Below, in pieces: positions 1,550 to 32,287 of a DNA stretch of 35,990 bases. The stretch is from assembly GCA_023131705.1 (NCBI GenBank), contig JAGLZG010000078.1:1-35990 (forward strand), given 5' to 3'. This DNA is from Nanobdellota archaeon (GTDB lineage Archaea > Nanobdellota > Nanobdellia > Woesearchaeales > B3-WOES). The position numbers and the translations under genes are program-made. Each line of letters begins with the position of its first letter. Position 1 is the stretch's first letter. Under the pieces are notes generated by a model, which was not told the DNA's origin, did not search any database, and worked only from the letters and a program-made list of their open reading frames with translations.

Positions 1550-3271
1550 ATGAATTATGGAATCACATCAGATGGATTCTTGAAAAAGAGCCTTGTCATA
1601 TTGAAGGCTGAGAGAGAGGATGCTCTCAGGGCTGTCTTTGGGGAGATCAATGTTGATGCAGCTTCTGTCTTTGGACAAATGATTGGAGTGGAGACAAAGA
1701 CACAGGCTGATATATGGGAGCTGCTTGAGATCATATATCATTCCATGTCTCCATCCAGTGCTGAGGGAGTCCTGCTTGATAATGTCTGTCAATACACTGG
1801 AATCACAAGACTGGCAGCCTCAAAGACTGAAGTTGTTGGAGCTCTTATTGGAGATTCCCTGACATCAGTGCCAGCTGGGACTCTTGTGAGTGTTCAGGAG
1901 ACAAAGGAAATTTTTGAGACAACTGAGCTGAAAGTCATTGACAAAACAGATGTCCTGAAGACAACAATTGAGATTGATGATGTTGCAATTTTATATGCAT
2001 ATACAGTCACTATTGATGGGAGTCCATATGTCTATGTCTGCAATGTCCTGACTGTTGAGGATGTTGCTTCAAATCTGGTTGCTGTCATTGATGCAGGACA
2101 GGATGCTGTTGATGTTGTTGACAATTTGGATGGGACATTCACTCTGACTATTGCCGATAAAAGGACATCCTTCTCAGTTGACATCTCTCCTGCTCATATG
2201 TCATATGTTAATCTGGGGACTCCAGTGGATTTCATTGCTCAGAATACTGGATCAATCATCTGTCCAGCAAATACAATGACAGTGATTGAGACTCCAGTGG
2301 CTGGGCTCTCTTCTGTGGTCAATCTTCTTGATGGAGCAACAGGCAGAGATCAGGAGACTGATGTTGAGCTCAGGATCAGAAGGAAAGAGAGTCTCAAAGT
2401 TGTTGGGGCTGGAAGTGTTGAGGCTATTATGGCAAGGCTGTCTCAGGAAGTTGAGGGAGTCTCAACAGTCAGAGTCATTGAAAATTTTACTTTGATTGAC
2501 AGTCAGAGACTGATCTTTGATGCTGCCTTTGTGACAGGGAATGTGATCAATGGCAAGGTCAATGGAATAGCATGGATTCAAGTGCCATTCAATACAAATC
2601 ATGATCTGACAGCTGTTGATCTGGTTGCTGCAATTGATGCTCTCACAGATGTCTCATGCATCCTTGATCCAAATGATACAGACAACAGGACATTCATTAT
2701 TGACAAGGTTGTTGATGTCAATGTCACTGATGTTGCGGTCACTGGAGGAGCTTCACAGGCAGGGAGTTCTGTTGTGGATTCAACTCCTCCCAAATCATTT
2801 GAGGCTGTCCTTGTTGGAGGAGATGAGGCAGAAATTGCACAGAAGATATGGGAAGTCAAGCCAGCTGGGATTGAGACCTTTGGGACAACATCAGAGACAA
2901 TCACTGACTCACAAGGAATTGATCATGTGATCAAATTCTCCAGACCTGTATATCAATATGCTCATGTCAAGGTCTCTCTCACTCTGAACCCAGAGGAGCA
3001 ATTCCCTGATAATGGAGAGGCAGTGATCCAGCAGAATATCCTTGACATTGGCAATTTGAACAGCATTGGAGATGATATCATCTTGCAGAAATTTTATTCA
3101 GCAATTTTTGATGAGGAGACTGGAGTTGATGGGGTTGCATCAGCTGATATTGAGCTGGCAGTCACTGCAAATCCTCTTGACAGTCCAGCATATTTGACAT
3201 CAAATATACCGATTGCACCGACTGAGATTGCTGTCTTTGACTTAACAAGAATAATAATTCTTATTCTATAA
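1550..3271 (+). CDS. Baseplate J-like protein with inserted modules
   Basis: GATGRDQETDVELRIRRKESL, VEGVSTVRVIEN, KSFEAVLVGGDEAEIAQKIWEVKPAGIETFG are typical of Mu gp47/baseplate J. Two extra beta modules are inserted. Confidence 0.85.
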   Translation: MNYGITSDGFLKKSLVILKAEREDALRAVFGEINVDAASVFGQMIGVETKTQADIWELLEIIYHSMSPSSAEGVLLDNVCQYTGITRLAASKTEVVGALIGDSLTSVPAGTLVSVQETKEIFETTELKVIDKTDVLKTTIEIDDVAILYAYTVTIDGSPYVYVCNVLTVEDVASNLVAVIDAGQDAVDVVDNLDGTFTLTIADKRTSFSVDISPAHMSYVNLGTPVDFIAQNTGSIICPANTMTVIETPVAGLSSVVNLLDGATGRDQETDVELRIRRKESLKVVGAGSVEAIMARLSQEVEGVSTVRVIENFTLIDSQRLIFDAAFVTGNVINGKVNGIAWIQVPFNTNHDLTAVDLVAAIDALTDVSCILDPNDTDNRTFIIDKVVDVNVTDVAVTGGASQAGSSVVDSTPPKSFEAVLVGGDEAEIAQKIWEVKPAGIETFGTTSETITDSQGIDHVIKFSRPVYQYAHVKVSLTLNPEEQFPDNGEAVIQQNILDIGNLNSIGDDIILQKFYSAIFDEETGVDGVASADIELAVTANPLDSPAYLTSNIPIAPTEIAVFDLTRIIILIL

Positions 3272-3287: not shown

Positions 3288-6200
3288 ATGGGTAAATTAG
3301 TTCAACCAGTTGGATTTGTTGGAGATTTCAAAGAGGATGGAGCAGTCCATTTCAAATGGTCAACAGCAGATCAGAATGGAGCTTCAATCACAAGGTCAAC
3401 TCAGGGGACAGTCAAAGTCTATAAGGATAACAATACAGCTCAGTCAAGCACTTCAGGAATCACCGACACAAAGGATTTCCATGCACTCACTGGAATCCAT
3501 GCTTGCACAATTGATCTCTCTTCAGATGCATTCTATGCTCATGGACATAATTATACTGTTATATGTCAAGATATGGTGGTTGATACAAAGGCAGTCTCAG
3601 ATGTGATTGGTCAATTTAGCATTGAAAACAGGGCAGCAGATATCAGAAAAATAAATGGAGGCAAGACAGATGGGAATAATGCAGTATTGAAATTGAAACA
3701 ATTACATATTATCAATGATGCAAATTCAGCCGCAATCCATTCTGAGGGAGCTGGAGGAGGAGCTGCAAGTCATGGCATCAAGGCAATTGGAGACACAGGA
3801 GCAAATGGAATTGATGCAGAGGGAGCTGTTGCTGGGATTAATGGAAGAGGAGGCTCTGGAGCTGGAGGTCAATTCACATCTGTCTCAGGGAAGGGAGTCT
3901 ATATTCAAGGAGCTTCTGGACAGATAGGACTCCATGTTGCAGGAATCAATCAAGCAGCTGTCAAGCTGGAAGGCTCAGGGACAGGCTCTCCATATGGTCT
4001 CTGGATTCTGTCAGCAGCGAATTCCCCAGCCTGTTATATGCAGGGATATGGAGATGGAGCTGGTCTCTATTGCAAAGGAGGAGTCACAGGAAAAGGAGTC
4101 CAGATTCTGGGAGGCAACACTTCTGGAAGTGGACTTGAGATCACAGCAGTTGATGGACATGGAATCCAGATTGTGGCTCAGGGCAACAAGCAGGGAGTCT
4201 GGATTGAAGGCTCTGGGACTGGCAATGGAATGTATATCAAAGGAGGAGCTTCTGGTGATGGAATTCACACTGAGGGAGGAGCAACCATTGGAGAGGGAAT
4301 CCATGCCAAATCAACAGGAGCAAATGGAATTCTTGCTCAGACAGTCCTTGCAGCTGGAAATGGTATCAAAGCTCAGGGAGGAGGCTCTGGAGCTGGACTG
4401 ATTGCTTCTGGAGGGACAGGAATCACAGGAGAGGGAGTGACTCATGGGATTGAAGCAATTGGGAATCAGGATGGAATCCATGCTGAGACAGTCTCTCCAT
4501 CATCAGGTCATGGGATCAGAGCAATAGGTCTTGGAGGTCATGGAATCTATGCAACTGGAGACACTGACTTTGATGGGATCAGGGCTGTTGGGACAGGGAC
4601 AGGATCAGGATTGAAGCTTGTCAAAGGTGCAACAGGGAAGGGAGTTGATGCTCAGGAGATCGGCTCTGTCTTCAATATTGATGGAGTCTCTGGAGCTGGC
4701 ATCCTTGACATATTGAAATTATTTGCAGACTCTGTTGGAGGAGGCAATTTTGACAAGACAACAGACAGCCTTGAGAAAATATCAGAAGGTCTTGGATCAG
4801 TCACTGGAGATGTCAATGTTGTTGCAATCTCAGGAGATGGAGGAGCTGCTGATGCTCTTGAGGCAATCCTTGACGGGACAGGAGCAAGGATTGACTTGAC
4901 AAAGCTGAAGATCAATGCAAGTGATGCAAATGGAGCTGTTGAGATTCTGAATGCTGCTGGCAAGGGAATCAATATTGTTGCAACAGGAGGAGAGGGAATC
5001 TATTGTCAAGGAACAACAGGAGTATATACCAAAGCATCCTCCAGCACTGGAAAAGGAATGATGATTGAGAGCGGGGCAAATGGAATTGCTCTGTATCTCA
5101 AGGGGACAAATGTTTCTGGATTAGAAATCTATGGAGGCGGATTTGGAGGAGCTGCTGTCCATATAAAGGCAAGGGGAGGCAGTAGAGGAGATGGAATCAG
5201 AGTTGATGGAGATGAACATGGAGTCTCATTCTATTCAGGAGGAGGCGGCACATATGAGAGACATGGATTTTATTGTGTCGGAAATGGGAAGGCAGGAAGC
5301 TCTGGAATAAAAGCAAATGGGACATCAAATGGATCAAGAGGAATGACACTTTTTGGAGCTGGATTTGGAGCATATGGACTGGTCATTCAGAATGGATCAT
5401 CAGCTGGAGTTGCAACATTAAAAATCAACAATACAGGTTCTGCTGCTGCTCCAGCGGTTCAGATCACAGGATATGGCTCTGGAGCTGGAGTGGAGATTGT
5501 TGGAGGCGACAATGGTCATGGCATTCACTCAAAGGGAGGATCATCAATTGGACATGGAATTCTGGCTGAGGGAGTTGCTGGAAATTATGATGGATTCAAG
5601 GCTCTGGGACATGGAGATGGAGCTGGGATCAGGGCTGAGGGAGGAGACAACAACAGCAATGGAATTGAAGCTGTTGGGATCGGCTCAGGTTCAGGACTAA
5701 AGGCTCTGGCTGGAGTGACAGGTCATGGCATCCTTGCTCTTGGAGGAGCAACATCTGGAGATGGGATCAAGACTCTTGGACAGACTTCTGGATCAGGGAT
5801 CAACTCAATTGGAGCTGGAGGACTGGCTGGAATGAAGATCAGTGCTGCTGGGACTGCTGTTGGACTTGACCTCTCTGGAGGAGGCACTCAGGGAGCTGGA
5901 ATCCATATTCAGGGAGGAGGAGGCAACAGTCAAGCAATGCTCATTGAGGGAGCTGGGAATGCTGCTGGAGTTGATATTCTTGGAGGAACAACAGGGATTG
6001 GAGTGAGCATTAAATCTCAGGGAGGAGCTGTTGGAATGTTGATTCAGGGACAGGGGACTGATGCTGTTGGAATCAGGACTCTTGGCAATGGAGCTGGAGC
6101 TGGATTCAAAGTTGAGGCTGGGACAGGGAAGGCAATTGACGCAGGAGAGATTGACACTATCCTCAGCAGAATTGGAGTGCCAGCAAATATTGACACAGGA

Positions 6201-6755
6201 GGAGCCTCTCTTGCAGATAACATCAAGAAGATGTGTGATGATTCAGCAGGGACTGTCTTTGATGCAACATCTGACAGCCTTGCAAAGCTGAGGCTTGCAA
6301 TTGATGCAGCTGGCATCACTCCTCAAGCTGTCAGGGATGCAATGAAGCTTGCTCCATCAGGAGGAGCTCCTGCTTCTGGATCAGTTGATGATCATCTGGA
6401 TGATATCCTTGAAGACACAGGGACAACCATTCCAGCAAGCCTCACTGATCTGAACAATGATCTTGCAGTGGTTGATGGAGTTGTTGATGATACAAATGAC
6501 AGAGTGAAGCTCATCGAGCCTCAATCTCAGGCAATATATGACAAGCTCCCAGCTGGAGACATTTCAGACTTTACAGAGGAGACATTGCTTGATGGAATAC
6601 AGACTGGAGTGATCCTTCAGCTTGTTCTTGCAATGGTTGATGGAAGGTTCAGAGTTGACTATCCATCAGCAGGGAAGTTGACATTTTTCAAGAGAGACAA
6701 TGTGACTGCTCTGACAGTGGTTGATGTGACAGCTGCTGGCAGGACAAGAGATTGA
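3288..6755 (+). CDS. Very large glycine-rich repeat protein, probable beta-solenoid tail fibre/spike
   Basis: 1155 aa; many GxGI-x-A-x-GG type repeats; SD AAGGAG upstream; located between J-like and DUF2612-like genes. Confidence 0.75.
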   Translation: MGKLVQPVGFVGDFKEDGAVHFKWSTADQNGASITRSTQGTVKVYKDNNTAQSSTSGITDTKDFHALTGIHACTIDLSSDAFYAHGHNYTVICQDMVVDTKAVSDVIGQFSIENRAADIRKINGGKTDGNNAVLKLKQLHIINDANSAAIHSEGAGGGAASHGIKAIGDTGANGIDAEGAVAGINGRGGSGAGGQFTSVSGKGVYIQGASGQIGLHVAGINQAAVKLEGSGTGSPYGLWILSAANSPACYMQGYGDGAGLYCKGGVTGKGVQILGGNTSGSGLEITAVDGHGIQIVAQGNKQGVWIEGSGTGNGMYIKGGASGDGIHTEGGATIGEGIHAKSTGANGILAQTVLAAGNGIKAQGGGSGAGLIASGGTGITGEGVTHGIEAIGNQDGIHAETVSPSSGHGIRAIGLGGHGIYATGDTDFDGIRAVGTGTGSGLKLVKGATGKGVDAQEIGSVFNIDGVSGAGILDILKLFADSVGGGNFDKTTDSLEKISEGLGSVTGDVNVVAISGDGGAADALEAILDGTGARIDLTKLKINASDANGAVEILNAAGKGINIVATGGEGIYCQGTTGVYTKASSSTGKGMMIESGANGIALYLKGTNVSGLEIYGGGFGGAAVHIKARGGSRGDGIRVDGDEHGVSFYSGGGGTYERHGFYCVGNGKAGSSGIKANGTSNGSRGMTLFGAGFGAYGLVIQNGSSAGVATLKINNTGSAAAPAVQITGYGSGAGVEIVGGDNGHGIHSKGGSSIGHGILAEGVAGNYDGFKALGHGDGAGIRAEGGDNNSNGIEAVGIGSGSGLKALAGVTGHGILALGGATSGDGIKTLGQTSGSGINSIGAGGLAGMKISAAGTAVGLDLSGGGTQGAGIHIQGGGGNSQAMLIEGAGNAAGVDILGGTTGIGVSIKSQGGAVGMLIQGQGTDAVGIRTLGNGAGAGFKVEAGTGKAIDAGEIDTILSRIGVPANIDTGGASLADNIKKMCDDSAGTVFDATSDSLAKLRLAIDAAGITPQAVRDAMKLAPSGGAPASGSVDDHLDDILEDTGTTIPASLTDLNNDLAVVDGVVDDTNDRVKLIEPQSQAIYDKLPAGDISDFTEETLLDGIQTGVILQLVLAMVDGRFRVDYPSAGKLTFFKRDNVTALTVVDVTAAGRTRD

Positions 6756-8957: not shown

Positions 8958-9869
8958 ATGAAGAGAGTCCTTGTTCTTGATGGAGGAGGAGCAAAGGGAG
9001 TGATCCAGTCTCAAGTCCTGAAGGATATTGAGAGGATCAAAGGCAGGAGGATCAGTGATATTTTTGATCTCATAGTTGGGACATCAGTTGGAGCTATTCT
9101 TGGAGGAATCTATGCATCAGGGAAGATGGATGCAAAATATATCCATGCTCTGCTGATGGACACTCTTCCAAAAGTGTTCAGGAAAAGACTGTTCAGGATT
9201 CCAAAATATAGCAGGAAGGCTCTTGACAATGTGTTGTCAAAGACAATTGGAAATGAATTCAGGATGAAGCAATGCAAGAGCAGATTCATTTGCACTGCTG
9301 TCAATATGGTTGATGGAAGGACTCACTATTTTAAAAGCTGGGAGGCTGTTGATGGAGAGCTCAGACTCAATGAGGCAATCACCAGATCATATGCAGCTCC
9401 TCTCTTCTTTGGATCAATAATTGACAACAAGAACAAAGCTGTCTGGCTTGATGGAGGGACAGGGAATGCCAATTGTCCTCTTCTGGAGGCTGTCATTGAG
9501 ACAGTCAGACAGAAGTGGCTGGGAGACAAGAATCAACATCAGAGTCCTGAGAAGGTTCATATCCTGAGCATTGGGACAGGTCACGTTGATTTCTCCATGT
9601 CATTCAAAAGAGCAAGGAGAGCAAGAACAATCAGGCAAGTCCTATTTTTCCTTGATCCGGCTGAGGGAGGACTGGCAAGGAACCAATCAACAGTGAGCAG
9701 AGTCCAGAAAATTAAGTCCCTCTCAACAATTATGAAAGAGCTCTCTTTCCAGAGATTGAATCCAGAAATCTCAAAAAGGCTGGACAGGATGGATGGAGTC
9801 CGATATCTTGAGACTTATCAAAATATAGGGGAATCCCTCTCAGACGGTATTGATCACTCCAAATTGTGA
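8958..9869 (+). CDS. Patatin-like phospholipase
   Basis: DGGGAKG oxyanion motif, GTSVG (GxSxG) nucleophile elbow and DGGTGNANCP (DGG) catalytic Asp motif. Confidence 0.9.
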   Translation: MKRVLVLDGGGAKGVIQSQVLKDIERIKGRRISDIFDLIVGTSVGAILGGIYASGKMDAKYIHALLMDTLPKVFRKRLFRIPKYSRKALDNVLSKTIGNEFRMKQCKSRFICTAVNMVDGRTHYFKSWEAVDGELRLNEAITRSYAAPLFFGSIIDNKNKAVWLDGGTGNANCPLLEAVIETVRQKWLGDKNQHQSPEKVHILSIGTGHVDFSMSFKRARRARTIRQVLFFLDPAEGGLARNQSTVSRVQKIKSLSTIMKELSFQRLNPEISKRLDRMDGVRYLETYQNIGESLSDGIDHSKL

Positions 9870-31543: not shown

Positions 31544-32287
31544 ATGAGTCAAACAGCTTACAACAGGAATCTCAATCCATCTTTTGCAGGGATGAAGGCT
31601 GATTCCAGATTTGACACTGTTGAGAGCTTCATTGCTGGTGTAGCAATTGCATTTGGGCTGGGAGTGTCTGGTGAAAAAGGAGAGACAAGGCTGGTTGTCA
31701 TTCCAAAAAATGATAATGCAAAGCTGGTCTTTGATGCAGACTTTGTGGATGGCAATGCAATCAATGGCAAGGTCAATGGAGTTGACTGGATAGAGGTTGA
31801 TTGGGACACTGACCATGACACAACTGCTGCTGCTCTGGCAGCTGAGATCAACAGCATGGCTGGAGTCACTTGCATCCTTGATCCATTGGATGCATCAAAT
31901 AAAACATATCTCATTGAGACTGTTGGACAGGATGCATCTGTCACAGACGTTGCTGTCACAGGAGGAATCTCTCAGGCTGGGAGCACTGTGACATATTCAG
32001 CAGATGATGAGTTCAGAGGAATTGCTATAACAACAGGAGCAAAGGAGCAAATCCTCTTGACAGGAGTGACAGAGTACAAAGCGAATGAAGCTGTCTCAGT
32101 GCTCAGGAGAGGGATGGCATGGGCAGAAACATCAAAGGCTGTCACAGCTGATGATGATGCATATGTTGACATGGATCAGAATGGAAAATTCACAAATGTC
32201 TCAACTGATAACATGACAACAGGAGGAAAATTCAGATCAAGTGTTGCAGCTGCTGGACTTGCATTGCTTGAGCTCAATATCCCTTAA
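31544..32287 (+). CDS. Capsid cement/decoration protein (DUF2190-like) with inserted module
   Basis: RGIAITTGAKEQ...YKANEAVSVLRRGMAW...GKFT...AAAGLALLELN resembles DUF2190 proteins; ATG 31544 after TTGGAGG. Confidence 0.65.
   Translation: MSQTAYNRNLNPSFAGMKADSRFDTVESFIAGVAIAFGLGVSGEKGETRLVVIPKNDNAKLVFDADFVDGNAINGKVNGVDWIEVDWDTDHDTTAAALAAEINSMAGVTCILDPLDASNKTYLIETVGQDASVTDVAVTGGISQAGSTVTYSADDEFRGIAITTGAKEQILLTGVTEYKANEAVSVLRRGMAWAETSKAVTADDDAYVDMDQNGKFTNVSTDNMTTGGKFRSSVAAAGLALLELNIP

Follow-up and report, generated by a model that had tools for sequence, protein, structure and literature searches.

The baseplate J-like protein and the capsid cement protein encoded in the window (the whole stretch of DNA that was analysed, 35,990 nucleotides) share a module of about 90 residues which is an insert in both, and which belongs to a family of more than 100 modules found in at least six classes of virion protein of related uncultured phages. 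This is quite probably a family of mobile, displayed domains, which fold independently and have spread between virion proteins; that estimate covers the domain and its movement, not its function. In the mechanism proposed, uncatalogued domains of about 90 residues would insert into permissive loops of tailed-phage virion proteins. These loops would lie on the exterior of the particle, where the module would be displayed in many copies while the core of the carrier protein would assemble as usual.

The carrier of the first copy is a baseplate wedge J-like protein of 573 amino acids (1550..3271, forward strand), which matches the J families PF04865 (E=4.8e-13) and phrog_6 (E=1.3e-54) as well as PDB chain 9ndy_H (E=3.5e-39). 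The module occupies residues 317-408 (2498..2773, forward strand), within the VIEN...PPKSFEAV loop. The second copy occupies residues 57-149 (31712..31990, forward strand; identified by BLASTP and by profile matches) of a capsid cement protein of 247 amino acids (31544..32287, forward strand). The two copies, both in open frames, are identical at 54 of 93 residues (58%) with one gap (BLASTP, E=9e-32); their alignment score is 280, compared with a maximum of 27 among 500 shuffles. At the DNA level they are 65.6% identical and are recovered as a pair (family D2) by a repeat search independent of BLASTP. The 21-nucleotide stretch ATCAATGGCAAGGTCAATGGA occurs exactly at 2546..2566 and at 31760..31780 (both on the forward strand), so the shared DNA reported in the initial annotation is real. 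That annotation was also right that one module is present in both proteins; its limits (2509-2790 and 31720-32000) have been redrawn at about 2498-2773 and 31712-31990, and the identity, given as about half, is raised to 58%. Where the two copies have identical residues, the codon is also shared in 35 of 53 cases, compared with 24 expected from the codon usage of the window; thus, the synonymous sites are unsaturated. A search of the assembly of 1.31 Mb for a third copy gave none.

In J, the module stands between VRVIEN and PPKSFEAV, a junction that the initial annotation had described as interrupted; the J proteins of three related contigs (L015, L017 and L018) run through this point with a short loop only, and in an alignment of 56 rows most J proteins are without a module there. 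The PDB relatives of the window's J are wedge proteins of 489 and 487 amino acids. J matches occur in 1088 records of isolated phages; the best of those listed cover no more than about 83% of the window's J, in two pieces, which is about what would be expected for this protein less its module. In the cement protein, cutting out the module turns a broken match to PF22758 (Phage_cement, E217 gp24/Pam3 gp6; E=2.9e-21) into one continuous match over positions 2-146 of 146 (E=1.8e-24), and in two relatives (L149 and L150) the module is at another loop with the loop used in the window empty. The label DUF2190, previously given to this protein, has to be replaced by PF22758: PF09956 (Phage_cement_2), which we take to be the DUF2190 family, gave E=1.5 and 9.7 bits against a cut-off of 24. 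The possibility that the segment is ancestral in all J and all cement proteins, which would have refuted the initial annotation, was tested and proved false.

The AlphaFold2 model of the J copy (96 sequences) has a mean pLDDT of 96.3, and its predicted order is strand, strand, helix and four strands, with a helix of 13 residues between strands 2 and 3. In the model of the whole J protein (pLDDT 93.4, pTM 0.56) a like order is seen in the module and in a resident domain (residues 137-233; 1958..2248, forward strand). By hhalign, the module and this resident domain match with 85.5% probability (E=5.7e-6, 59 columns), and by profile comparison the resident domain is a distant relative of the module. 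It differs from the module in being undetected by the module HMM and in being present in module-free J proteins; in other J proteins (L069 and others) a second module is nested within it. DUF3383 tail sheaths have a resident domain of the same kind of strand-helix order, whose hhalign match to the module is non-significant.

When the module was compared with the PDB by Foldseek, the sheath of cyanophage A-1(L) came first (TMq 0.64, E=4.2e-3), followed by outer domains of flagellin and FliD and by chains of the PhiTE and Bxb1 virion maps. No match reached E<=0.001, and these matches therefore indicate likeness of fold rather than membership. The best match in BFVD is a viral protein of 773 amino acids (TMq 0.87, 33% identity), the same length as the tail sheath of Rhizobium phage RHph_N46, and it may be a sheath of that type.

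The family was assembled from scans of viral contigs, using the two window copies, then wider alignments and then an HMM, and the carrier proteins were classed by Pfam, by PHROG and by clustering with the module masked. The classes are cement (PF22758); a second decoration-like protein without a family (L009, L049, L067); tail sheath (DUF3383/phrog_205) and a sheath of another kind (phrog_23; L046); a head completion or neck protein (phrog_939, with a PF05521 match below the cut-off); tail terminator (PF23961/phrog_7975); and baseplate J. Within a class the insertion point varies: there are about six in one sheath alignment, two in cement and two in J, namely the site seen in the window and the site nested inside the resident domain. 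In three sheaths of 730-745 amino acids (L059:13632-15827, L087:2735-4963 and L094:2200-4416) a pair of modules accompanies copies of the strand-helix resident domain, so that a single sheath has grown by both tandem and nested addition of domains.

The number of copies per genome varies as well. Four genomes of 38-44 kb (G069-G072) have six or seven module matches each (one match in G070 being a fragment), distributed as one in cement, one in the head completion protein, two in the sheath and two in J. G061 has three copies (cement, sheath and J) and G062 has one, with a cement protein 63% identical to that of the window. Plasmid 1 of Criblamydia sequanensis has four (one in cement, one in the sheath and two in J). 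In Rhizobium phage RHph_N46 the module matches the annotated tail sheath twice, once strongly and once more weakly. A first genome scan for the module, a search of 60 related genomes, a search of isolated phages with the cement module, the whole cement protein and the consensus, and a search of plasmids with the J copy gave no match. The two window copies matched no Pfam or PHROG family above the cut-off, so membership of a known family is ruled out; among PDB profiles the single match, a weak one, was 9zdk gp76 (E=0.00019), and a literature search for accessory domains gave nothing.

The Criblamydia plasmid (NZ_LK031773.1; L154, L155), which is typed as non-mobilizable, encodes a contractile-tailed virion set (terminase, portal, MuF, DUF2213 protein, cement, capsid, DUF3383 sheath, spike and J) with a capsid protein 53% identical to that of the window. 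Metal-efflux genes, arsenic genes and a gene annotated as encoding an aminoglycoside phosphotransferase family protein are present as well, and the element looks like a phage-plasmid.

The history of the modules does not follow that of their carriers. In a tree of 104 modules (97 columns, quick searches, many forks open, with sampling seeded by the module) the carrier label changes 24 times, where the minimum possible is 7. AU tests reject monophyly of the cement modules (p=0.0015), of the sheath modules (p=0.005) and of the modules at the second J site (p=0.025). They also reject a single clade for the J backbones that carry an insert (p=0.002), as drawn from a scan that ranked its matches by a query containing the module. 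Four changes are needed on the J backbones at the site used in the window; thus, this loop probably received modules more than once. The idea that an accessory module is swapped between head and baseplate, put forward in the initial annotation, is borne out by these tests, by the number of carrier classes and by the several sites per protein.

Movement within the genome, suggested at the same time, is not borne out in the sense of a recent move: the J copy is 57% identical to the window's cement copy and 58-60% identical to the cement copies of three other phages, so it parted before those cement proteins diverged. Thus, a recent copying of the window's own cement module into J is unsupported by identity, despite the excess of shared codons; the comparison points to two copies of one source lineage rather than a recent local copy. 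Across the family, pairs of modules in different proteins on the same contig are 32.9% alike, compared with 30.1 +- 0.7 after permutation (2/2000), an excess led by L003, L078, the window, L008, L057, L036 and L061. The best partner of a module is on the same contig in L003, L008, L036, L061 and L078, and beyond the best few, modules that share a contig are mostly no more alike than modules from different contigs. In L078 the copy in the terminator is sister to the copy in J (SH-aLRT 97), and the nearest J relative, L114, is without an insert.

Three other accounts of this distribution can be weighed together. Convergence on a common structural fold that recurs without descent from one domain would draw on the resident domains of like strand-helix order that J and the sheath possess; we give it next to no credence, since it has to accommodate an identity of 58% at E=9e-32, 21 nucleotides in common, the excess of identical codons and a resident J domain that scores below significance with the module HMM. 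For the two window copies, chance and convergence are ruled out by the E-value and by the score of 280 against a shuffled maximum of 27. It is very improbable that the module is an ancient resident domain, present in the ancestors of J and of cement and lost many times without ever moving. The insertion site is constant inside a close clade of cement proteins and the J carriers that have both sites fall together in a single clade, as that account would have it, but insertion sites differ within one protein family, module trees depart from those of the carrier proteins, the J carriers as a whole are not one clade, and the J proteins of isolated phages stop at about 83% coverage among the matches listed. 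The differing sheath sites, the continuous cement match once the module is removed and the AU tests together rule out an ancestral domain.

Rather unlikely, though well ahead of those two, is the account in which each copy was acquired from another phage by recombination between genomes and copying between genes of one genome was rare. Such acquisition fits two findings: in most cases two modules on one contig are no more alike than two from separate contigs, and the cement copies of other phages are as near to the window's J copy as is the cement copy of the window itself. Set against it are the greater likeness of same-contig cross-protein pairs than of permuted ones, the five contigs in which the best partner is local, the sister copies of L078 and the codons shared by the window copies at 35 of 53 identical residues. 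Movement of one displayed domain between virion proteins is the reading that we prefer.

Accessory domains of this behaviour have a known precedent. Ig-like domains are described as accessories of virion proteins that pass horizontally from phage to phage and are proposed to attach weakly to carbohydrates of the cell surface (Fraser et al. 2006, as cited in PMC9230969). Like them, the module occurs in several classes of virion protein (at least six); unlike them, it has a predicted strand-strand-helix-strands order rather than an Ig sandwich, and one sequence family occurs in cement, neck, sheath and baseplate of one genome. The model, with its helix, is not an all-beta sandwich; no Ig family is among the Pfam matches of the two window copies, and among the 25 families shown for 96 modules an Ig family appears with no more than a single weak match. 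A review of tail sheaths describes added domains that sit on the conserved core, away from the tube, and suggests adhesion or stability for them (PMC9230969). The module is likewise inserted into a conserved core and would lie away from the tube; it differs in occurring also in cement, terminator, head completion protein and J, and at about six positions in the sheath. With the outer domains of flagellin and FliD it shares a similar fold (Foldseek TMq about 0.4-0.6), but the window copies are not members by sequence: Flagellin_IN (PF07196) matches the cement copy with 14.6 bits against a cut-off of 22.7 (E=0.038) and has no match to the J copy, and among 96 modules five have weak matches (E<=0.1), the best at E=0.00024. 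Thus, the Ig-like domains are a precedent and the module is a second, non-Ig promiscuous family.

Its presence in baseplate, cement, sheath and neck, as many as six or seven times in one genome, gives the module the look of a mobile outer fitting for the entire virus particle. By their family assignments the carriers are exterior proteins, with repeated insertion in their loops. The module would be at the surface on the strength of its insertion in loops and of its fold analogues, facing outwards as added sheath domains do (PMC9230969). Adhesion or stabilisation, the role suggested in the initial annotation, would probably apply to it. Weak multivalent attachment to the host surface has roughly an even chance of being its function; cladding, by contacts between neighbouring modules, is a lesser prospect, and another role, such as masking, a smaller one still. 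Somewhat short of an even chance, and held tentatively, is a virion-wide coat: in one phage lineage the main exterior proteins (cement, neck, sheath and baseplate) would all have acquired the same mobile domain, so that a single binding or protective chemistry extends over the entire particle and can be renewed by copying from gene to gene. If instead modules on cement, sheath and baseplate touched each other or the next subunit, they might strengthen the particle with no part in host attachment. Most copies being in the cement and sheath classes and stabilisation being one possible role of added sheath domains (PMC9230969) would suit such cladding; the few copies per particle of the J, terminator and head completion carriers would not, nor would the variation of site and number among relatives (one copy in G062, three in G061), and on balance we doubt it.

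Promiscuous accessory domains of phages have been known mainly as Ig-like domains, and the present family does likewise across head, neck, sheath and baseplate, with some loops struck more than once. Its profile allows unannotated virion inserts to be named, loops able to accommodate a 90-residue domain are now marked in cement, sheath and J, and coverage of a whole particle with one binding chemistry becomes testable. The module also ties together a viral contig from a bin that is putatively archaeal, a phage-plasmid of Criblamydia, a Rhizobium phage and many uncultured phages.

The bin is the assembly of 1.31 Mb and has an archaeal 16S rRNA (RF01959, 762 bits); from its genome size and this 16S its group would be DPANN, and the window may be a tailed virus of such a small-genome (DPANN-like) archaeon (loci: window 1-35990; L152 1498-2414; L151, or G000:C164). 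CpG depletion is extreme in the window and in contig C164 and is shared by the bin: the observed/expected ratio of CpG is 0.11 in the window, 0.06 in contig C164 and 0.19 in sampled bin contigs, compared with 0.97 in L003 and 1.38 in L004. The tetranucleotide distance of the window from the pooled bin contigs is 0.450, and the link to the host is therefore suggestive. No literature on tailed viruses of DPANN archaea was found.

C164 (L151) encodes a sheath, without a module, and further tail genes downstream. Its tetranucleotide distance from the window is 0.131 (0.50-0.67 for relatives), and its 8,435 bases with the 35,990 of the window approximate the size of G061; thus, C164 is probably the rest of the window's virus, holding the missing tail genes. 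The contig ends have no exact overlap. Ahead of its sheath, C164 encodes a protein (L151 1-2727) with many GSITVTLEETTMAAAGG-type repeats, then a C-terminal part that by eye resembles the tail terminators of L048 and L055; the repeats would be an accessory insert of another kind, in a protein class where other genomes have the module. Both in GC (0.418) and in tetranucleotides (0.293), another bin contig, L158 (G000:C20, 10.3 kb), resembles the window more closely than it does the pooled bin contigs; there may thus be more sequence of viral or mobile origin in the bin. Within the window, J is followed by a protein of 1155 amino acids (3288-6755) with many short glycine-rich repeats at the DNA level and no Pfam match, which is probably a tail fibre. 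Adjoining the tail genes is a patatin-like phospholipase (8958-9869; PF01734, E=2.6e-17), perhaps a lipid-active enzyme of lysis or entry.
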